DNA of 28,579 nt, from contig CALAZQ010000257.1 of NCBI GenBank assembly GCA_937926325.1, forward strand, positions 1 through 28,579. Reading direction: 5' to 3'. The translations under genes and the position numbers were made by a program. Source of the DNA: an uncultured Planctomycetaceae bacterium (GTDB lineage Bacteria > Planctomycetota > Planctomycetia > Pirellulales > UBA1268). The notes beneath the pieces were generated by a model. The model was not told the DNA's origin. It searched no databases and saw only the letters and a program-made list of their open reading frames with translations. Below are positions 1,381-23,871 of the stretch, piece after piece; positions within the stretch are counted from its first letter, which is position 1, and every line of letters starts with the position of its first letter.

Positions 1381-2403
1381 ATGGCATCCGTTGTCACCCC
1401 TTCCTGTTTTCGGGCCGATCCTGGGCGGCTGCATGACCGTGTCCGGTCGCTCGAGCAGCTCTGCCGCCGGGCGATTGGCCGGCCGGTTGCCCCGGGGCGT
1501 GGCGTAACGCTGGAGCGGAGGGTTGTCAGCAGTGGACTGCCGTCACTTGACCGGCTGCTGCCCGGTGGGGGCATTCGGCAGGGCAGCCTGATTGAGTGGC
1601 TGGAGCCGGCTGCCGAATCAGGCCTGGAAACGGCTGCTGGTGCGGCTGCCTTTGCCTTGGCGGTCGCTGTCAGGCTCCAGTCCGCTGCGGGCCTGCCGGC
1701 GGGCGGGCCCATCCTGGTGATCGATCGGGGCGGACGGTTTTACCCGCCGGCAGTGCTGCCCTGGCTGGCAACGGCTGAGCCGCCAGCCGTCCCCGACAGG
1801 GCGGTCACCGGCCGGTGGCAACGGCGGGGGAAGGGGCCTGCGGCGTCACCGCGAAACGACCGACGGAAGCATGGTGACGCCAAGCATGGTGACGCCAAAG
1901 CAGATCGCCGGCTCTATGTCATTCGTCCCGACAGTGAGGCCGACGAGATCTGGGCGATCGACCAGGCGCTGCGATGCCCCGGGGTGGCGGCGGTGGTTGG
2001 CTGGCCACGGCGGGTCGCACCAACCCCGCTGCGACGCTGGCAGTTGGCTGCGAAGGCCAGTGGTGTGGTGGGTCTGTTCGTGCGGCCGGCCGCGGCCCGC
2101 CAGCAGCCTACCTGGGCTGAGGTAAGGGTGCAGGTGCAGCCTGCCAGCCATGGCCAGACTGCTGGCGGGCGATCGGTTGCCGGCTGGCCGGCTGGTCGTG
2201 CCAGCTGGATCGACGCGCGAGCCTATCGGCTTGTGCGGGTCGGTGGTGGCTGGGAGGCGGCAACGGCGGTGGCAGAGCCAACAGTTGACTGTCTGCTCGA
2301 CCTGAACAGTGGCCGGGAATGTCGCCGGCCTGCCGGTGCCTCCTTGCAGCCCGACTGGAGCAGCAGCACCAACTGGAAGGAGCTGGCATGCCGCGCATCA
2401 TGA
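1381..2403 (+). CDS. imuA: ImuA-type RecA-fold accessory protein of the SOS mutasome
   Basis: This 340-residue protein belongs to the ImuA/SulA-like family, which works with ImuB and DnaE2 in damage-induced translesion synthesis in the cytoplasm. Residues 51-75 read SGLPSLDRLLPGGGIRQGSL, the typical start of the RecA-like core. The usual Walker A Gly-Lys-Thr is absent (AESGLETA at about 78-85), as expected for ImuA, so ATP hydrolysis is not implied. Residues 109-125 (PILVIDRGGRFYPPAV) form the next core strand. A basic low-complexity insert at about 136-177 contains an exact tandem repeat encoding KHGDA twice. The ATG at 1381 lies just after the promoter, with only a weak GCAGGCG-like ribosome site. 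Its last 16 bases overlap imuB, pointing to translational coupling. The call relies mainly on the gene order imuA-imuB-dnaE2 plus the N-terminal motif. Confidence 0.85.
   Translation: MASVVTPSCFRADPGRLHDRVRSLEQLCRRAIGRPVAPGRGVTLERRVVSSGLPSLDRLLPGGGIRQGSLIEWLEPAAESGLETAAGAAAFALAVAVRLQSAAGLPAGGPILVIDRGGRFYPPAVLPWLATAEPPAVPDRAVTGRWQRRGKGPAASPRNDRRKHGDAKHGDAKADRRLYVIRPDSEADEIWAIDQALRCPGVAAVVGWPRRVAPTPLRRWQLAAKASGVVGLFVRPAAARQQPTWAEVRVQVQPASHGQTAGGRSVAGWPAGRASWIDARAYRLVRVGGGWEAATAVAEPTVDCLLDLNSGRECRRPAGASLQPDWSSSTNWKELACRAS
1867..1896 (+). repeat. Perfect 15-base tandem duplication inside imuA
   Basis: AAGCATGGTGACGCC occurs twice head to tail (1867-1881 and 1882-1896) and encodes KHGDAKHGDA at residues 163-172. 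The duplication is in frame and sits in a charged linker between two predicted core strands. It looks like a recent replication-slippage event tolerated by a flexible loop. Confidence 0.95.
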
Positions 2404-4121
2404 CCATCTGGCTGCCGCGTTGGCCGGTGCAGCGGCTGCTGGTGGAGCAGCCGAATCTCAGGCCGCAGCCAATCTTTGTCTGTCGGCAGAATCATCGCGG
2501 TCTGCTGACGGTTGCTGCGTGGGCCTGGGCCATGCCGCCGGCAAGGCCTTCCGGTCGGCGGCCGGCAGTCGAGCCGGGCATGTCACTGGCCGAGGCGATG
2601 GCGGTGCTGGCGCCGGCCTATGGATCGTGGGCCTGCCGGATGGCCCATATCGTTGACGAAGATGCCGTTGGTGATCGGCAGGCCCTCGAAACATTGGCCC
2701 GCTGGGCCCGCCGGTTCGCCCCCGTGGTGGCGGTCGGGCCGGCCCCGGTTACCGGTGCCGCAGGCAGACCGTCGGTGGCTCAGCGGCAGGCTGCCGCCAG
2801 TGACTGCCTGCAGCTCGACGTGACGGGCACGGCCCATTTCTTCGGTGGTGAATCGGGGCTGGCCCGGACCGCCGCCTGGACCCTGGCCGCCCGCGGGCTG
2901 CATGCTCGGGTGGCCATTGCCGACACGCCGGCCGCCTCATGGGCGGCGTCCAGGCATACCGCGACAGTGGCCGCCGCTGCTCCCCAGCAGCCGCGGCGGC
3001 AGGGGCGGTGGCTGGACCGTCAGCAGCGGTGGGTGGTGGTGCCACCGGGCCGGCAGCGGCAGCTGCTGGCCGGCCTGCCGCTGCCGGCATTGCGGCTGCC
3101 TGCCAGGGTGATTGATGCCCTGCTCGAAGTGGGCGTTGAATCGATCGGCCACCTGCTACAGCTGTCGCGGGCCAGCCTGCGGCAGCGGTTCGACCAGCTG
3201 GTGACGTTGCGGCTGGCAGCATTTCTGGGTGAGGCGGCTGAGCCGTTGCAGCCGCCTGATGGTGATCCACTGCCGACCGCCAGCCATGCCTTCGACCTGC
3301 CGGTGCTCAGCCGCGATCTCACCGATGATGATCTGCCGTCATTGTGCGACCGGCTGGTCAAGGACTGCCTGCAGCCACTGGCAGCGGTGGGCAAAGGGAT
3401 CGCTGGCCTGCAGCTGCGGCTGGATGGCGGGGGTGGCCGGCCCCCGACGGTGATCGACGTCGGCCTCTTTCGGCCGGCAACGTCAGCGGCACATCTGGTT
3501 GAGCTGATCATGCTGCGGCTGAGTCGCACCCGGCTGCCACGCGAACTTGCCGGCCTGACGGTCGAGGTGGTTTCAGTCGCCCCCCTGCCCTGCCGGCAGC
3601 AGCTGCTGTTTGATGCACCCGGCTCAGTGGCAGCACTGCAGACAGGGCCGCAGGTTGCTGGCCTGCTCGATCGGCTGGCCAGCCGGCTCGGCCGGGCGGC
3701 GGTGGTCGAGCCCCGGCTGCTGGCCGATGCCCAGCCTGAGGCTGCCTGGGCGGCGGTGCCGGTCGCCGGCGTTGCCGGCCTCCCCTCGCGCCGCGTGGCC
3801 AGTGGCCGGGCCGGCAAGGAGGGGGCACGAGCCGCCGCGCCGGCCGGTGGCTCGTGCCGGCCAACCTTCATTCTGCCACGGCCGCAGCCGCTGGAGGTGC
3901 TGGCGGTCGCTCCCGAGGGGCCGCCGGTACGGTTCCGCTGGCAGGGACGGCTGCATGACGTGGCCCGGGTCCGGGGGCCTGAACGAATCGAAACAGCCTG
4001 GTGGCGGGGGCCAACGGTGCGGCGGGACTATTACATCGTCGAGACCGGTGGCGGTGGTCGCTTCTGGCTGTTCCGTGGCCTGCGACGGCAGAGCTGGTTT
4101 TTGCACGGCACATTCGGCTGA
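2388..4121 (+). CDS. imuB: ImuB, Y-family polymerase-like mutasome adaptor
   Basis: This 577-residue protein resembles Y-family DNA polymerases but is of the ImuB type, which bridges DnaE2 and the sliding clamp. The start at 2388 has an excellent AAGGAG ribosome site at 2377-2382, giving MPRIMTIWLPRWPVQRL. In real Y polymerases this region holds the first metal-binding Asp (DMDAFF-like); here it is replaced by IWLPRWP. The later SIDE/DE pair is replaced by LDVTGTAHFFGGE (143-155), the ImuB hallmark, so it is expected to be catalytically inactive. EPGMSLAEAMAV (62-73) is the conserved helix of the finger region, and helix-hairpin-helix-like sequence lies near 225-260. QQLLF at 404-408 fits a QxxLF clamp-binding peptide. 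The C-terminal end, with GRFWLFRG, is typical of the family. It overlaps imuA by 16 bases and ends 20 bases before dnaE2. Confidence 0.92.
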   Translation: MPRIMTIWLPRWPVQRLLVEQPNLRPQPIFVCRQNHRGLLTVAAWAWAMPPARPSGRRPAVEPGMSLAEAMAVLAPAYGSWACRMAHIVDEDAVGDRQALETLARWARRFAPVVAVGPAPVTGAAGRPSVAQRQAAASDCLQLDVTGTAHFFGGESGLARTAAWTLAARGLHARVAIADTPAASWAASRHTATVAAAAPQQPRRQGRWLDRQQRWVVVPPGRQRQLLAGLPLPALRLPARVIDALLEVGVESIGHLLQLSRASLRQRFDQLVTLRLAAFLGEAAEPLQPPDGDPLPTASHAFDLPVLSRDLTDDDLPSLCDRLVKDCLQPLAAVGKGIAGLQLRLDGGGGRPPTVIDVGLFRPATSAAHLVELIMLRLSRTRLPRELAGLTVEVVSVAPLPCRQQLLFDAPGSVAALQTGPQVAGLLDRLASRLGRAAVVEPRLLADAQPEAAWAAVPVAGVAGLPSRRVASGRAGKEGARAAAPAGGSCRPTFILPRPQPLEVLAVAPEGPPVRFRWQGRLHDVARVRGPERIETAWWRGPTVRRDYYIVETGGGGRFWLFRGLRRQSWFLHGTFG

Positions 4122-4141
4122 GAGCCGGGGAGGCGATCGAG

Positions 4142-7100
4142 ATGGTTCAGCCAGTGAATTGCCGCGTCGGCTATGCCGAACTGCACTGCACCAGCAACTT
4201 TTCGTTTCTGCAGGGCGGGTCGCATCCGGAGGAGTTGGTGGCCCAGGCGGCGGCACTCGGCTATGCCGCGGTGGCCATCACCGACCGGGCCAGCCTGTCG
4301 GGGATTGTGCGGGCTCATGCTGCTGCCAAGGAGGCGGGCATCAAGCTGATTGTCGGCGGAGTGGTCGAGCCGATCGATGCGGCCCCGCTGGTGCTGTGGG
4401 TTGCAACCGGTATCGGCTACGCCAACCTCTGCCGGCTGCTGACAGCCGGGCTGATGAAACCCGAGCCGCCACAGCAGTGGTATGAGGACCAGCCGGCGAC
4501 CTGGCCTGGCGGTGACGATACCGGCTGCCGGCTGACCGCCGACGAGGTTGCCGCTCATGCTGAAGGGCTCCTGGCCGGGCTGCCACTGGCCCGGCTGCCC
4601 GCCACGGAAGAGGCGGCAGTTGCAGCCATTCAGACCTGGCAGGATCGGCTGGGCGACAGGCTCTATGGCCTGGCCGAGGTGGCCCGTGAAGGGGACGACA
4701 ATGAGCGGTTGGAAACCTTTGCCAGGCTCAGCCGCCGCACCCGTCTACCGCTGGTGGCAGCCGGTGATGTCCGCTATCACGACCGCAGCCGACAGCCTCT
4801 GCATGATGCCCTGGCTGCGGTCCGTCACGGTGGCACGGTCGAGGCGGTGCGGGACCGGCTGCTGGCCAACGGCGAGCGGCATCTGCAGCCGCTCGACCAG
4901 ATCGACGACCGCTTTGCCAGTCTGCCAGGGGCAGTGGCCCGCACGCTTGAGATCGCTGACCGCTGCCAATTTTCGCTCGCGGAACTCCGCTATGAATATC
5001 CCGATGCCAGCGTCCCGGCCGGCCGGACGCCCGGGAAGTATCTGGCCGAACTGAGTTGGAAGGGCGCCCGGAAGCGGTATCCCGACGGCGTGCCGCAGAA
5101 GGTGGCCGACCTGCTTGAGCATGAGCTGGCGCTCGTCACCGAGCTGGGCTACGAGGCCTACTTCCTCACGGTCTTTGACCTGGTGCGGTTCGCCCGCCGG
5201 CGGGGCATTCTCTGCCAGGGACGTGGGTCGGCGGCCAACTCGGCCATCTGTTACTGCCTGGGCATCACTTCGGTCGATCCCGCCCGGATGAGCGTGCTGT
5301 TTGAGCGGTTTGTCAGCCGGGAGCGGCAGGAGGCTCCCGACATCGATATCGACTTTGAGCATCACCGGCGTGAGGAGGTGCTGCAGTATCTCTATGACAC
5401 CTATGGCCGCATGCGGGCGGCGATGACCGCTGAGGTGATCTGCTATCGGCTGCGATCGGCCGTTCGGGATCTGGCCAAGGTGCTCGGCTTTTCCCTCGAC
5501 CGGGTTGAGCGGCTGGCCCGGGTGCTCGACGTGGGAGACACGCTTGAGCAACTGCCCGGCCGGCTGGCCGAGGCGGGGCTTGACCCTGCCAGCGAGGCCG
5601 GCAGCCGGCTGCTGACCCTGGCCGGACAGCTGGTCGGCTTCCCCCGGCATCTGGGCCAGCATGTCGGGGGCATGGTGATGACCCGGGGCGACCTTTGCGA
5701 ACTGGTGCCGATTCAGCCGGCCAGCATGACGGGCCGAACCGTCATCCAGTGGGACAAGAACGACCTCGATGAACTCGGCATGCTGAAGGTGGACTGCCTG
5801 GCGCTCGGCATGCTGACGGCGATCCGGCGGGCCTTCGACCTGGTGGAACAGGCCGGTGGCCCCCGGCTGACACTGGCCACGGTGCCGGCTGAAGACCCGG
5901 CCGTCTATGAGATGGTGTCGCGGGCCGACACCGTCGGCGTGTTCCAGATCGAAAGCCGGGCCCAGCGGACCATGCTGCCCCGGCTGAAGCCGGCCTGTTT
6001 TTATGACCTGGTGATCGAGGTGGCGATTGTGCGGCCGGGGCCGATCCAGGGGGACATGGTTCACCCCTACCTGCGGCGGCGGCAGGGGGATGAGCCGGTG
6101 CACTATCCCAATCGGGCGATTCGTGAGGTGCTGGAGAAGACGCTCGGGGTGCCGCTGTTTCAGGAGCAGGCGATGCGGCTGGCAGTGGTGGCGGCTGGCT
6201 TCACTCCGGGTGAGGCCGATCAACTGCGGCGGGCGATGGGAGCCTGGCGACGACCCGGTGTGATTGACGAGTTTCACCGTCGGCTGGTCGAGGGGATGCT
6301 GGCCCGGGGGCTTTCGCGGACCTTCGCCGAGCAGGTCTTCCAGCAGCTGCGAGGCTTTGGCGAATATGGCTTTCCGGAGTCGCATGCCGCCAGCTTCGCC
6401 CTGCTGGTCTATGTTTCAGCCTGGCTGAAGCGGCACCATCCAGCCGCCTTCACGGCGGCGCTGCTCGGGAGCCAGCCGATGGGCTTCTATGCCCCGGCGC
6501 AGCTGGTGCGGGACGCACGGGACCATGGGGTGACCGTTCTACCGGTCTGCGTGCAGGCCAGTGACTGGCAGGCCACGCTGGAGGTCTGCCCGGAGGATGA
6601 CGCGGCCGGTCCCCCCCAGCCGGCGATTCGACTGGGGCTTGAGCAGGTGCATGGGCTGGGCGAAGCGTCCGGCCGGCGGATAGTGCAGGTGCGGCGGGCC
6701 GGGCCGTTTGCCAGCGTCGATGATCTCTCGCGGCGGTGCCGGCTTGATCGCGACGAGCTGTTGCATCTGGCCCGTGCCGGAGCCCTGCAGAGCCTGGCCG
6801 CCGACCGGCGGCAGGCGGTCTGGCAGGCGCTGCAGCGGCAGCCTGAGCCGGGCAGCATGCCGCTGTTTGAAGCAACGGACGGTGGCCTGTTGGCAGCTGA
6901 ACCCGATGCAGCAGCCGAGACCGGCCTGCCCGCCGCCACACCGCTGGAAGAGGTGATTGCCGACTATCGCACGGCAGGGCTGTCGCTGACGGCCCATCCG
7001 TTGCAGTTTGCCCGTCGCCAGCTGGCTCGAGGGGGCGTGGTGACAGCGGCTGTTGCTGCCGCCCTGCCTGAAGGCCGGCGGGTCAAAGTAGCCGGTGTGG

Positions 7101-7396
7101 TGCTTTCGCGGCAGCGGCCGGCCACCGCCAAGGGGACGATCTTCTTGTCGATCGAGGATGAGAGCGGAGTGGCCAACGTCGTGGTGCGGACGGCGGTCTG
7201 GCAGCGGTGTGGCCCGCAGGATCGGCGGGCGGCGGTACTGCTGGTGGAGGGCCGGGTGCAGCGGCGCGGGACAGTGGTGCATCTGCTGGCAACACGGCTG
7301 GCCGGCTGTCAGCCCCCGGCCGAGTCGTCTCTCGGCGCGGCCGGCCCCGAGCAATTGGTCGCCGGCCTGCCCCGGATGTCCCGTGATTTCTGCTGA
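4142..7396 (+). CDS. dnaE2: Error-prone DNA polymerase DnaE2 (C-family alpha subunit)
   Basis: This 1084-residue C-family polymerase carries out damage-tolerant, mutagenic DNA synthesis with ImuA and ImuB. The ATG at 4142 follows a GGGGAGG ribosome site at about 4126-4132. The N-terminal PHP domain begins YAELHCTSNFSFLQGGSHPEELV, the DnaE2 version in which canonical metal-binding residues of the PHP site are altered. The palm contains CQGRGSAANS (about 359-368) and PDIDIDFEHHRREE, giving catalytic Asp402 and Asp404; the third is Asp551 in MLKVDCLALGML, so all three match replicative alpha subunits. Fingers and helix-hairpin-helix regions follow (GEYGFPESHAASFALLVYVSAWLK at about 740-763, with a short DDLSRRCRLDRDELLHL stretch). 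A C-terminal OB-fold begins near residue 979 (VKVAGVVLSRQRPA). Length is typical. It is probably co-transcribed with imuB. Confidence 0.96.
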   Translation: MVQPVNCRVGYAELHCTSNFSFLQGGSHPEELVAQAAALGYAAVAITDRASLSGIVRAHAAAKEAGIKLIVGGVVEPIDAAPLVLWVATGIGYANLCRLLTAGLMKPEPPQQWYEDQPATWPGGDDTGCRLTADEVAAHAEGLLAGLPLARLPATEEAAVAAIQTWQDRLGDRLYGLAEVAREGDDNERLETFARLSRRTRLPLVAAGDVRYHDRSRQPLHDALAAVRHGGTVEAVRDRLLANGERHLQPLDQIDDRFASLPGAVARTLEIADRCQFSLAELRYEYPDASVPAGRTPGKYLAELSWKGARKRYPDGVPQKVADLLEHELALVTELGYEAYFLTVFDLVRFARRRGILCQGRGSAANSAICYCLGITSVDPARMSVLFERFVSRERQEAPDIDIDFEHHRREEVLQYLYDTYGRMRAAMTAEVICYRLRSAVRDLAKVLGFSLDRVERLARVLDVGDTLEQLPGRLAEAGLDPASEAGSRLLTLAGQLVGFPRHLGQHVGGMVMTRGDLCELVPIQPASMTGRTVIQWDKNDLDELGMLKVDCLALGMLTAIRRAFDLVEQAGGPRLTLATVPAEDPAVYEMVSRADTVGVFQIESRAQRTMLPRLKPACFYDLVIEVAIVRPGPIQGDMVHPYLRRRQGDEPVHYPNRAIREVLEKTLGVPLFQEQAMRLAVVAAGFTPGEADQLRRAMGAWRRPGVIDEFHRRLVEGMLARGLSRTFAEQVFQQLRGFGEYGFPESHAASFALLVYVSAWLKRHHPAAFTAALLGSQPMGFYAPAQLVRDARDHGVTVLPVCVQASDWQATLEVCPEDDAAGPPQPAIRLGLEQVHGLGEASGRRIVQVRRAGPFASVDDLSRRCRLDRDELLHLARAGALQSLAADRRQAVWQALQRQPEPGSMPLFEATDGGLLAAEPDAAAETGLPAATPLEEVIADYRTAGLSLTAHPLQFARRQLARGGVVTAAVAAALPEGRRVKVAGVVLSRQRPATAKGTIFLSIEDESGVANVVVRTAVWQRCGPQDRRAAVLLVEGRVQRRGTVVHLLATRLAGCQPPAESSLGAAGPEQLVAGLPRMSRDFC

Positions 7397-20937: not shown

Positions 20938-21527
20938 ACACGCACGCCGTCGCGACTGCCGAGAGCGGCCAGGCCCTCCCGATCCTGGTCGGTTATCGCG
21001 CCACCGGGAAATCGACCCTGGCAGCCGATCTCGCCCGGCAGCTCGACTGCCGGTGGCTTGACGCCGACGATGCCTTTGAAGCCGCTTTTCGCTCAAGCAT
21101 TGCCCGCTTCATTACTGACCGCGGCGAGCCTGCCTTCCGGGATGCCGAAACCGCCCTGCTTGGCGACCTGCTCGAGCAGCCCGATGCGGTGCTCTCGACG
21201 GGCGGCGGTGTTGTCCTCCGGCCGGAGAACCGTCGGCTGCTGAAACGGTCTGGCCGCCCGGTCGTTTGGCTGACCGCGCCGGCCGCAGCGATTCGCCGTC
21301 GGCTGGCTGCCGATCCGAGCACCAGCGGCCGCCGGCCGGCACTTGCCGGTGGTGACGTACTCGGTGAAGTTGAGCAGGCCCTTGCCCACCGCGAGCGGTT
21401 CTACCGTGAGGTGGCGAATGGCATCTTTGACACTGCGGCGGTGCAACGGGATGCCCTGGTGACGGCGGTCTGCCGCTGGCTTGCCGAATGGCGGCCGCTA
21501 TCAGCCGGCGGGGAGGCAGAGCAATGA
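20934..21527 (+). CDS. aroK: Shikimate kinase
   Basis: This 197-residue P-loop kinase phosphorylates shikimate at the 3-hydroxyl using ATP. Walker A is GYRATGKST (20-28), where most homologues have GxxGxGKS/T. LDADDAFE (44-51) supplies the shikimate and metal contacts, ITDRGEPAFRDAE matches the conserved block after it, and STGGGVVLRPENR is the substrate-binding glycine motif. The lid and adenine-binding region RRPALAGGD is typical. The start is a GTG whose last bases form the aroDE stop, and the end overlaps the next gene by ATGA. Both overlaps indicate a coupled aroDE-aroK-peptidase operon. The N-terminus is about 14 residues longer than usual, with no alternative start that fits better. 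Confidence 0.95.
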   Translation: MNTHAVATAESGQALPILVGYRATGKSTLAADLARQLDCRWLDADDAFEAAFRSSIARFITDRGEPAFRDAETALLGDLLEQPDAVLSTGGGVVLRPENRRLLKRSGRPVVWLTAPAAAIRRRLAADPSTSGRRPALAGGDVLGEVEQALAHRERFYREVANGIFDTAAVQRDALVTAVCRWLAEWRPLSAGGEAEQ

Positions 21528-22663
21528 GTGGTGGCGCCGGCCCGATCGGTTTTGCGGTCGCCGCGGCTGCAGGCGGTGTCAGTGGGTTTCTGCTGAAGCG
21601 ATTCGTCGGCTGGATGCTCGCAGAGCTCGATGCTGCAGTGGCTGCCGAGGAGGGCCAGCCTGTGCCTGTCGCTCAGCCGACCGGGCGGCTCTCGAACTGG
21701 CCGGTTGCGGTAGCCGTCCCGTTGGCCATCGGCCTCTGGTGGTGGGAGGTGACCAGTGCCGGCCTGTTGCCGGCCGCCCCGTCGGTCGAGGCGATGCAGC
21801 GGGTGGCCGGCCATCTGGTCTTTTTCTGGTTGCTCGCTGCGGCGGCCTGGGTCGATATTCGGCACCGGGTGATTCCCGACATCATTACCACTCCGGGGGT
21901 GGTCGCCGGACTCGTGGGCACCTGGCTGCTGCCATCCCTCCTGCTGCCAGTCCTGACGCTGATGCCACGAAGCTTCGCCGCCGCTGAAGCCTCAGCCGAC
22001 CTGCTCACTGCCTGGGGCGGTCTGCGGGCGGGTGGTCCGCCGCTGTCTCCACTGGGGCCGGTGGTCGCCGTCGTGCTCTTCACGCTCTGGTGGGCAGTCT
22101 GCACGGCACCGTTTTTTCTCGCCGCAGAGCGGTCTGCTGCCGGCGGCATGGCGTGGCTGGGGAACTGGTTGCGGGAGCCACGCTCACTGCTGCTCGTGAC
22201 CGGATTGCCGCTGCTGCTGCTGGCGGCCCGGGGCGGCGGGCTGCGGTTTGTGGCGGTCGAGAGCAGCCTGATCGGACTCGCGGTTTCAGCCGGGCTGGTC
22301 TGGCTGACCCGATCGGGGGCGTCACTTGCGCTTGGGAAAGAGGCGATGGGAATGGGGGACGTCACCCTGATGGCGATGGTGGGAGCCTGGCTCGGCTGGC
22401 AGCCGGCGGTGCTGACGTTTTTTCTGGCAACCTTCATCGGGCTCGGCCATGGCCTCTTTCAACTGCTGCGACACCGGGAGAATGAACTCCCCTACGGCCC
22501 CAGCCTCTGTCTGGCCGCCGTCATCGTCACGATCGCCTGGCGGCCGATCTGGCAGTTGACGGGGCCCTTCTTCGCCGATCCGCTCCAACTCGGGCTGGTG
22601 CTGGGGCTGGTCGTCGTGCTGACGGCGGTGACCCTGTTCATCTGGCAGCGGCTCCGCGGCTGA
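21524..22663 (+). CDS. Prepilin peptidase (A24 family), enlarged and lacking the zinc domain
   Basis: This 379-residue polytopic membrane protein should be an aspartic peptidase that processes type IV pilin-like or type II secretion pseudopilin precursors at the inner membrane. The two family motifs are present: WVDIRHRVIPD (catalytic Asp111) and the GxGD motif GMGDVTLMAMVGAWLGW (Asp279). ELPYGPSLCLAAV matches the conserved stretch in the next helices. Only two Cys are present, so the N-terminal methyltransferase/zinc domain of PilD-type enzymes is absent. The aspartates are 168 residues apart instead of about 65, with an inserted region (about 140-245) that adds hydrophobic segments. About ten membrane helices are predicted by eye. 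GGGAGG at 21511-21516 and the ATGA overlap with aroK support the start. Confidence 0.85.
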   Translation: MSGGAGPIGFAVAAAAGGVSGFLLKRFVGWMLAELDAAVAAEEGQPVPVAQPTGRLSNWPVAVAVPLAIGLWWWEVTSAGLLPAAPSVEAMQRVAGHLVFFWLLAAAAWVDIRHRVIPDIITTPGVVAGLVGTWLLPSLLLPVLTLMPRSFAAAEASADLLTAWGGLRAGGPPLSPLGPVVAVVLFTLWWAVCTAPFFLAAERSAAGGMAWLGNWLREPRSLLLVTGLPLLLLAARGGGLRFVAVESSLIGLAVSAGLVWLTRSGASLALGKEAMGMGDVTLMAMVGAWLGWQPAVLTFFLATFIGLGHGLFQLLRHRENELPYGPSLCLAAVIVTIAWRPIWQLTGPFFADPLQLGLVLGLVVVLTAVTLFIWQRLRG

Positions 22664-22781
22664 CAACGCCGTGACGTCAGCGGGAATGCCCGGCTGCGGA
22701 TCGGTGCCCGAGCTACGCCGGCTCTCAGGGCACGGGCACCCCTCCCGGAATATCGAGTCGGATTTAGATCCAGAACGGGTA
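22664..22781 (+). other. Inverted-repeat region with alternative pairings after the prepilin peptidase
   Basis: No gene is visible here. A bulged hairpin CAGCGGG-AATG-CCC(G)GCTG spans 22678-22696. GTGCCC (22704-22709) can pair with GGGCAC (22728-22733), enclosing GAGC/GCTC (22710-22724). Alternatively GGTGCCC (22703-22709) can pair with GGGCACC (22734-22740). The two pairings exclude each other. TTAGAT or TAGATC at 22764-22770 could be a -10 box for the RNA that follows, but no -35 is evident. Confidence 0.4.
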
Positions 22782-22935
22782 GGCTCGGGGGTCGGCGAAC
22801 GCTCGAGGAGCGTTGGGCGTATCTTCGCCCCGCGACGAGACTTTTGCCGCCCCCGAGCCGGTGGTACACGCAGGCCGAGCGCGGTCTAACCCGCATAAGT
22901 CGTGCCGAACAGGATTACTTTCCTGTTCATTTTGA
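22782..22935 (+). ncRNA. Predicted three-way-junction RNA with downstream terminator, unidentified
   Basis: A closing stem pairs GGCTCGGGGG (22782-22791) with CCCCCGAGCC (22850-22859). It continues after one bulged T as CGGC (22793-22796) with GCCG (22846-22849), making 14 bp. Inside are AACGCTC-GAG-GAGCGTT (22798-22814) and, with no base between, GGGCG-TATCTT-CGCCC (22815-22830), then a single-stranded joiner CGCGACGAGACTTTT. Downstream are GCGG/CCGC (22880-22893) within CACG/CGTG, and a perfect 8-bp hairpin GAACAGGA/TCCTGTTC (22907-22928) followed by ATTTT. The layout suits a small RNA of about 150 bases or a cis-regulatory leader of the OmpA-family gene. I do not recognise the family. Orientation is inferred from the flanking genes and the terminator. 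Confidence 0.5.
22907..22933 (+). terminator. Terminator-like hairpin after the structured RNA
   Basis: GAACAGGA (22907-22914) and TCCTGTTC (22921-22928) form a perfect 8-bp stem with a TTACTT loop, followed by ATTTTG. The T-run is short, so termination may be partial. On the minus strand the flanking bases do not give a T-run, which supports plus-strand use. Confidence 0.5.
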
Positions 22936-22970
22936 GCAGAGTCGCCTGACGAGAGGCCGCCTCACCGGTC

Positions 22971-22999
22971 TTGCCCGGTTTCAACGCCCCCCCTATCCT
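22971..22999 (+). promoter_or_regulatory. Candidate promoter of the OmpA-family lipoprotein gene
   Basis: TTGCCC (22971-22976) and TATCCT (22994-22999) are separated by exactly 17 bases, four of six matches each to the sigma70 consensus. The start point would fall near 23006, giving a leader of about 38 bases with no Shine-Dalgarno sequence. Its position after the terminator-like hairpin suggests that the upstream RNA is a separate transcript. Confidence 0.45.
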
Positions 23000-23043
23000 C
23001 CTCGGGTCGTTCTGCACCGTTCCCAAGCCTCCTGCCAACTCGC

Positions 23044-23871
23044 ATGAGCCGACTTCGGCTGCACACCGTGTCCGCGCTGTTCGCCGTGGCGTTCTTCGCC
23101 GGCTGTTCGCAGAACCTGCTGCGGCGGGAGACGCCACCCGCGGTGATCAGCCTCGAGCCACCACCGGGCGTGGCGGCTCCGGCCCATACCCTGCCGCAGC
23201 CACTGGCGAGCCTGCCCGAGCAGCCGTCCTATGCCAACCTCGATGGCCGCCAGTTGGAGGCGGCCCTGGCCCGCAGCCAGACAGAGAATCAGCTGATGCA
23301 AGAAGAGTTGGCCGCCGTTCGCGAACAACTGGCCAGCACGACCGCGCAGCTGGCGGCCAGCCGAACCGTGGCCCGTCCACCGGCGGCAACTGGTGGTGGT
23401 TCCGGGCCCGGCCCCGCGGCTGCCGGTGCGGCGGCGATGCGGTCGGCCATCAGCCAGCTCGCTGTCGGTGATCTGGCGGTTCGGCTCGACGGCTCGGTGG
23501 TCAGGATCGAAATTCCGGCCGATCGGCTCTTCGAGGACACGACAGCCAACCTGCTGCCGGCCGGTGTCGCCCTGTTGACCCAGCTGGCAACAGAGCTTGA
23601 GCGAGTCTTTCCCCGTCACTTTCTGGGGATCGAGGGGCACTTCGACTCCGAGCCGATTCGGGGGGAAGCCTGGGAGTCGGCCCACCAGCTCACCGCCGCT
23701 CAGGCTGCGGCAGTGTTTGATTTTCTGGCCTCCCGCACTCCGTTGGAAGAGGGCCAGATGTTTCTGGTTGCCCATGGTGCGAACCATCCCGTGGTGTCCA
23801 ATGCCACCGCCGCCGGCCGCCAACGGAATCGCCGGGTCGAGTGCGTCGTCTATCCGGAGCAGGCTCCCTGA
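23044..23871 (+). CDS. OmpA-family peptidoglycan-associated lipoprotein
   Basis: This 275-residue protein begins with a lipoprotein signal (hydrophobic VSALFAVAFFAG, then lipidated Cys21 in the lipobox FAGCS). A Pro-rich linker follows, then a short coiled coil at about 70-107 (QLEAALARSQTENQLMQEEL and onward) and a Gly/Pro spacer. The C-terminal OmpA/MotB-like domain spans about 130-272. It shows a GHFDSEP block in place of GHTD, the helix SAHQLTAAQAAAVFDFL in the position of the usual LSxxRA helix, and the final GRQRNRRVECVVYPE matching the GRxxNRRVE signature. The role is inferred: anchoring to peptidoglycan from an envelope membrane. The gene has no Shine-Dalgarno site and sits after a 380-base non-coding region with its own promoter. 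It could equally belong to a MotB-like or Pal-like subgroup. Confidence 0.88.
   Translation: MSRLRLHTVSALFAVAFFAGCSQNLLRRETPPAVISLEPPPGVAAPAHTLPQPLASLPEQPSYANLDGRQLEAALARSQTENQLMQEELAAVREQLASTTAQLAASRTVARPPAATGGGSGPGPAAAGAAAMRSAISQLAVGDLAVRLDGSVVRIEIPADRLFEDTTANLLPAGVALLTQLATELERVFPRHFLGIEGHFDSEPIRGEAWESAHQLTAAQAAAVFDFLASRTPLEEGQMFLVAHGANHPVVSNATAAGRQRNRRVECVVYPEQAP

Follow-up and report, generated by a model that had tools for sequence, protein, structure and literature searches.

The window analysed here, the whole stretch of 28,579 nucleotides at positions 1 to 28,579 of contig CALAZQ010000257.1 from an uncultured Planctomycetaceae bacterium, holds a spacer of 380 bp between a gene of the type IV leader peptidase family and a gene for an OmpA-family protein. 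In this spacer lie a hairpin whose core recurs in related genomes (family A) and part of a second dispersed palindrome (family B); G and L numbers are our handles for genomes and loci. The features are the following:

21488..22663, + strand: upstream gene, type IV leader peptidase family (Peptidase_A24; Pfam PF01478, E 2.4e-14)
22664..22963, + strand: stretch with no blastn counterpart in the closest relative, G001 (orthologous locus L320; alignments stop at 22663 and resume at 22964)
22711..22751, + strand: right half of family B, in the place of the family A left arm
22777..22863, + strand: family A core, one long irregular hairpin (covariance-model match, RNAalifold, pair counts, mutual information)
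22782-22799/22843-22859, + strand: outer stem of the core (pair counts and RNAalifold on 49 copies)
22801-22811/22832-22841, + strand: middle helix of the core (Watson-Crick and tandem G.A pairs)
22805..22809 (5' half) and 22834-22838 (3' half), + strand: tandem-GA block, with the pairs G.A, A.G, G-C (22807-22836), G.A, A.G
22815-22819/22826-22830, + strand: apical hairpin of the core, shared by the hairpin and junction models
22860..22889, + strand: right arm and right end of family A, ending ...GGTCTAA, which corresponds to ...GCGCTCTAG (by eye)
22907..22928, + strand: separate 8-bp hairpin outside family A (read from the sequence)
23044..23871, + strand: downstream gene, OmpA-family protein (Pfam PF00691, E 2.5e-10)

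An earlier note on this DNA had taken positions 22782-22935 as one unit, a three-way-junction RNA followed by a terminator-like hairpin. Its building blocks are there to be read: the closing stem 22782-22796/22846-22859 with a bulged T at 22792 can be drawn, and the inner hairpins 22798-22804/22808-22814 (7 bp) and 22815-22819/22826-22830 (5 bp) as well as the 8-bp hairpin 22907-22914/22921-22928 are present. The element is also truly structured, with compensatory changes across its copies and with positions 22765-22940 folding more stably on either strand than any of 200 shuffles (z -4.71 on one, -4.11 on the other). A chance GC-rich palindrome devoid of biological meaning would find favourable ground in this high-GC genome, where hairpins are common; with 0/200 shuffles folding equally well and the core matched in 36/40 genomes of the family, such an accident is improbable in the extreme. 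The proposed unit, on the other hand, falls apart, the repeat having its right end at about 22889 and the second hairpin lying beyond it. Nor is the picture of a discrete ncRNA gene of about 150 bases with its own promoter and terminator supported: a scan of 22640-23080, with a reach confined to sigma-70-type promoters, gave 0 promoter-like and 0 terminator-like sites, and a single genome may contain at least 110 copies of the core. The closest copy, L081, has TTTGAT in place of the -10-like TTTAGAT (22763-22769). The earlier note had matched the element to no known family, and none covers the core: Rfam 15 yielded 0 gathering-level matches in the whole window and, at E values up to 5, four sub-threshold matches in the spacer, all outside the core. 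Family A is like the riboswitch and ncRNA classes of Rfam 15 in being structured and in its compensatory changes, and unlike them in this want of any match over the core.

Fold of the core hairpin

Two models compete for the core, the three-way junction and a single long, irregular hairpin that contains tandem G.A pairs. For the window copy the junction as given has an energy of -49.9 kcal/mol, against -55.2 for the minimum-free-energy fold and -52.2 for the long hairpin drawn with its lone pairs, so that the junction is not the best fold of this copy. Across 49 copies the long hairpin has 9 pairs changed on both sides (32 cells), a count reached by 0/500 shuffles, and versions of it slid along the alignment have 0-4 such pairs; the count of further pair types is weaker, being reached by 28/500 shuffles. 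RNAalifold predicts the long hairpin from the same copies unprompted. The junction model has 7 doubly changed pairs (20 cells), all of them in the outer stem and apical hairpin common to both models; the 7-bp hairpin peculiar to the junction contributes none, and its pair 24-36 is disrupted in 26/49 copies. We therefore rejected the three-way junction: pair counts, RNAalifold and fold energies all favour the long hairpin, and the relatives give the first inner hairpin no covariation support. Covariation maintains the long hairpin, although many copies are sister copies, so the cells do not count as independent events.

By mutual information over 85 distinct cores one pair stands out, 22807-22836, which lies far inside the supposed junction (G,C in 69 cores, C,G in 15 and A,C in 1). 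In 140 copies matched by motif, taken from 21 genomes plus the window, this pair is G-C in 121 and C-G in 19, with 0 mismatches; this count requires the surrounding motif, so that odd copies escape it, such as the A,C copy in L129, which is the single exception in both the 85-copy and the 49-copy alignments. The C-G form occurs in 6 genomes, in 5 of them alongside G-C copies. Read antiparallel, 22804-22811 against 22832-22839 gives C-G, G.A, A.G, G-C, G.A, A.G, G-C, C-G; that is, two tandem G.A blocks surround one Watson-Crick pair. The outer block is GA/GA in 110 of the 140 copies, GC/GC in 14, GA/GC or GC/GA in 6 and otherwise composed in 10. In the 14 copies, which come from 2 genomes, both A residues have become C, turning the tandem G.A into two Watson-Crick pairs. 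In place of the Watson-Crick pairs T-A and C-G of the window's outer stem, most copies have an extra tandem G.A. Of the two strands, the + strand gives the better fold in 47/49 copies. Because G.A pairs are favourable and the complementary T.C pairs are not, the + strand is the likely folded strand, and by this modelling RNA and single-stranded DNA would fit alike. The tandem-GA hairpin of family A is unusual and well supported.

Copies, ends and placement among relatives

When the window spacer was compared by blastn with the loci of relatives, the core was matched at unrelated places, for instance twice in tandem after hisA in L011, and the same core adjoins many different genes. The structured stretch is one copy of a dispersed repeat and not a single RNA gene. 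A DNA search found the core in 13/22 genomes with up to 43 matches each. The covariance model R1 was built from 49 copies, the window copy included, which itself scores 108.4 bits (E 1.6e-20) and is the only family A copy in the window; the next matches there reach 22.6 bits (same place, other strand) and 17.3 bits. Searches with this model found the core in 21/146 genomes of a sample of the order and in 36/40 genomes of the family of G001, with 1 to at least 110 copies each (at least 110 in each of G068, G092 and G108); within the family the search found no core in G002, G015, G126 and G553. A phylum-wide search, thin owing to strict filters and to scoring 11 candidates per genome, and hence with weaker negatives than the 40-genome search, found the core in just 1/392 genomes, the reference genome G010. 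Viral contigs gave 0 matches to one exact core pattern, and plasmids and phages gave no blastn match. On this evidence, family A is restricted to one planctomycete family and nearly universal there. The HisA encoded in the window is 94% identical (residues 1-229) to that of the Planctomycetia bacterium WB5_5_029 MAG (L001). Three loci (L010, L012, L013) are titled Candidatus Kuenenia stuttgartiensis; their genes and repeats match this planctomycete family, and they probably stem from mislabelled MAGs. Our search of open-licence papers found none on the family A repeat, and in PMC6461901, which names the ZH-3NOV15 sample series (the MAG of L011 is, by its title, from that series), the string 'palindrom' occurs 0 times.

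The fuller copies end in 12-bp inverted repeats (CTAGAGCGCATC/GATGCGCTCTAG) and comprise, from left to right, a 12-bp end, a left arm of about 52 bp, the strongly conserved hairpin core (roughly 85 nt), some 30 nt of right arm and the mirrored end. Matches to the 12-bp end pattern exceed those to a reversed control in G068 (153 vs 33), G011 (42 vs 15) and G010 (25 vs 14). Paired ends (at most 3 mismatches) 120-230 bp apart were present in 16 of the 20 regions fetched at end-pattern matches, spanning 161-163 bp in 10, 182-183 bp in 5 and 129 bp in 1. Among the 115 copies, which like all those analysed are the best search matches and no random sample, 37 have both 9-bp end motifs (GAGCGCATC/GATGCGCTC, at most 2 mismatches); the left motif sits at its usual 52-54 bp in 32 of these 37, and a few of the remaining ones are probably due to chance. 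One or both ends are lost in many copies. The window copy has a right arm of the canonical 30 nt that agrees in 22/30 letters with the G010 right-arm consensus, beyond the limit of 2 mismatches for ends; it has no left arm, and the right half of a family B copy stands in its place. Positions 22777-22889 are thus in all probability a left-truncated family A copy. No consistent set of target-site duplications was found: the CTAG at both ends may be part of the ends or a target duplication, the two being inseparable, and by eye a G011 copy in L153 has GATA on both sides while most copies are without matched flanks.

Conservation is stronger in the internal hairpin than in the arms. Some copies lack the arms, and the core by itself also forms tandem arrays, with a 99-bp period in G108 and others. 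Regular core arrays were seen in L194, L195, L196, L197 and L198, with 99-bp units in G108, a spacing of 261 bp in G045 and one of 178 bp in G068. In a longer subclass (182-183 bp in L260-L264; also L294) the 3' strand of the tandem-GA block seems, by eye, to be replaced by an extra hairpin-like segment; this subclass occurs in G010, G011, G068 and G108.

Family A is biased to gene tails. Gene context came from our own codon-usage gene caller run on 212 loci; 120 copies were considered and 94 scored, with 2 lying inside ORF calls, 6 without a neighbour and 18 at most 400 bp from a locus end. Of the 89 copy-bearing spacers, 40 are convergent and 5 divergent; the others are co-directional, with the core sense in 32 and antisense in 12. 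The 112 copy-free spacers (at least 100 bp) comprise 20 convergent, 77 co-directional (both senses) and 15 divergent ones. The convergent excess (p 4.5e-5) and the preponderance of sense over antisense (p 0.0037) are significant; the depletion of divergent spacers is not (p 0.096). Altogether 72/89 copies lie downstream of, and sense to, a gene. With duplicates removed, TAG is the stop codon of 59/145 genes pointing at a copy vs 64/287 other called genes (p 1.1e-4), and a C-TAG ending occurs in 23/145 vs 16/287. Several stop codons fall at the expected CTAG ends, 50-52 bp before or 28-30 bp after the core (60 copies inspected).

Nature of family A and rival readings

The earlier note had offered a regulator of the OmpA-family lipoprotein. 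In favour of a riboswitch or other cis-regulator of this kind, the core of the window is highly structured and lies co-directional with ompA, stopping about 180 bp short of the start of that gene. OmpA relatives occur in 39/40 genomes of the family (the match in G542 is weak); ompA loci were inspected in 31 of these 39, and 2/31 gave no gene pair, leaving 29 spacers. No family A copy is present in 27 of the 29 (60-262 bp), among them that of G001, which was checked by blastn and by reading; 4 of the 27 come from genomes in which no copy at all was found. The other two spacers (L294 and L296, measuring 276 and 291 bp) hold one, in L296 in the opposite orientation. Since 27/29 orthologous spacers are without a copy, family A is no conserved ompA regulator. 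A conserved position upstream of one gene class, as expected of an ompA riboswitch, was not found, and the core stands beside many other genes; control of ompA by this element is very improbable. Family A rather appears, from these comparisons, as a sporadic guest of the peptidase-ompA spacer, outside conserved ompA control. The spacer of G001, a genome with 83% identity to the window in the peptidase and 91% in OmpA (over 109 residues on that contig), measures 122 bp. An insertion in the lineage of the window would best fit the copy-bearing spacer, although the extra block (about 250-300 bp) exceeds one element. The comparison being one between species, a deletion in G001 is a possibility, but it seems unlikely, because other orthologous spacers are also without a copy.

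A MITE (miniature inverted-repeat transposable element) is a short, non-coding, high-copy element with defined ends and terminal inverted repeats, and MITEs such as Correia, ERIC and RUP are 100-200 bp long, non-coding, with inverted ends and a long hairpin, and dispersed between genes. Family A is likewise short, non-coding and bounded by terminal inverted repeats, occurs in high copy, is dispersed, and is present or absent at orthologous sites. Compared by description and not by alignment, it is like Correia, ERIC and RUP in size, inverted ends, long hairpin and intergenic spread, and unlike them in that its internal hairpin has diverged less than the arms and also occurs by itself in tandem arrays, and in that no parent transposase was found among the Y1_Tnp and DDE_Tnp_1 loci searched. 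REPINs are, by the title of PMC3116915, a miniature mobile DNA family in bacteria, and in this family A would resemble them. They are paired REPs mobilised by RAYTs, and no such partner was seen for family A. Family A is a new family of an ordinary kind, the miniature palindromic repeat.

The transposase families searched for a mobiliser were Y1_Tnp and DDE_Tnp_1. Y1_Tnp genes occur in 8/16 genomes, and the core is absent from 13/13 of their loci (12 above the family cut-off; 9 in element-bearing genomes and 4 in the copy-free G015). These loci have no family A arms beyond 12-15-bp matches (E 0.05-0.2), and where they carry long flanking inverted repeats these are unrelated ones, e.g. GGTGCCAGCCACC in L113 and L116. 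A RAYT partner was therefore dropped as a candidate, as was a DDE_Tnp_1 partner, the 4 loci of that type (in 4/7 genomes) having no family A ends within 2 mismatches. On contig 5 of G068 (L258) two ends lie 1.5 kb apart, the left one belonging to an ordinary core. As the sources are mostly fragmented draft MAGs, the missing mobiliser weighs little.

Di Nocera et al. (2013, PMC3733652) report both GTAG and CGTC REPs from deep phyla including the Planctomycetes, and describe GTAG REPs as palindromic, clustered and placed at gene tails, where the end of the element often supplies the stop codon. Like these REPs and their RAYT REPtrons, family A is high-copy, intergenic and mostly downstream of genes. 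Its palindromic form, gene-tail position, arrays and occasional supply of the stop codon from an element end, together with the Y1_Tnp genes in half of the genomes searched, would suit a GTAG-type REP moved by a RAYT/TIRYT Y1 transposase. Against this, REPs are single simple stem-loops of 20-40 bp, whereas the core hairpin of family A measures about 78-85 nt, contains an internal tandem-GA helix and is part of a unit with inverted ends, mostly of 161-163 bp. A GTAG does stand at the foot of the window copy; across the 49 copies A5 and G6 are nearly invariant, and T4 is neither invariant nor nearly so, which leaves the family without a strict GTAG. With no core at any of the 13 Y1_Tnp loci and their long inverted repeats unrelated, we regard this assignment as unlikely.

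Our preferred reading, which we hold with considerable confidence, is that positions 22777-22889 are a copy of a dispersed, non-coding hairpin element of the MITE/REP-like kind, a new family within one planctomycete family. Mobility we infer from copy number, ends, arrays and presence or absence at one locus. Family A would spread in the manner of miniature non-autonomous transposable elements, moved by a trans-acting transposase that recognises the ends, the folded strand or both, the tandem G.A being favourable on the + strand only. It would settle where it does least harm, sometimes giving the gene that it abuts its TAG stop, and an inserted copy would probably be transcribed along with the upstream gene, forming a hairpin in its 3'-UTR. 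In the window, a copy may have inserted, or been rearranged, beside a broken family B copy between the peptidase gene and ompA. Counting against mobility are the fruitless search at 13 Y1_Tnp and 4 DDE_Tnp_1 loci, the interspecies nature of the empty spacer with its extra block larger than one element, and the presence of copies in 36/40 genomes, which could also mean a useful function.

Such a function is the substance of a different reading, a possible but on balance doubtful one: that family A is kept for its transcribed + strand, as a genome-wide RNA signal, a 3'-UTR hairpin with a tandem-GA stem that would shield mRNA ends, make transcription pause or terminate, or serve as a binding site for a protein, with movement secondary. 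The near-universal presence in the family speaks for it, as do the better fold of the + strand in nearly all copies, the retention of the tandem G.A (110/140) and of the pair 22807-22836, and the excess of co-directional copies sense to the upstream gene (32 vs 12) along with the 72/89 downstream and sense. An RNA role is possible, its support being the strand and orientation bias. Recognition of single-stranded DNA by a transposase would, however, impose the same constraints on the fold; 12 co-directional antisense and 5 divergent copies sit ill with a 3'-UTR signal, and orthologous spacers variably have and lack a copy. The window core is not followed by a T-run and is therefore not an ordinary intrinsic terminator. 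A bolder and more tentative idea, which we consider rather improbable, joins transposition to signalling: a mobile RNA signal, in which the 85-nt tandem-GA hairpin would have spread and been tandem-amplified family-wide into the 3' ends of tens to more than 100 transcripts per genome, its + strand bound by a dedicated protein or by its mobilising enzyme and setting mRNA ends. If true, this would define a new class of structured mobile elements, recognised by a non-Watson-Crick stem and not by a plain palindrome.

The 'candidate ncRNA' of this window belongs to a repeat family, so that scans of these genomes for structured RNA need prior repeat masking. With copies in 36/40 genomes, family A offers a species-rich system in which to ask what moves hairpin repeats with no evident RAYT partner, and also whether such repeats become tuned as mRNA 3' ends.

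The neighbouring family B is a palindrome of about 150 bp, GGGGCTGCCCATGCCCC...GGGGCATGGGCAGCCCC (19 copies inspected). A DNA search with 22690-22781 gave matches in 5/7 genomes, with 40 in G012 and 27 each in G004 and G016. Families A and B lie close together also in L081, L182, L216, L217 and L224. Further examples of family B are L236 and L240; G004 has three copies at a 95-bp period on contig 113 and one in its peptidase-ompA spacer (L004:4217). For the 16-mer CGTGCCGAACAGGATT (22901-22916), taken from the base of the second hairpin, the matches listed include 8 exact ones in G012 and 2 in G016; in two G012 contigs the 16-mer lies 63-67 bp from family B copies, and it may be a third repeat or a shared site. 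Elsewhere in the window, positions 1381-7396 hold an ImuA-like gene (84 bits, under the cut-off of 150) and an error-prone DNA polymerase gene with a 600-aa ORF between them, an arrangement that we take to resemble mutasome cassettes.
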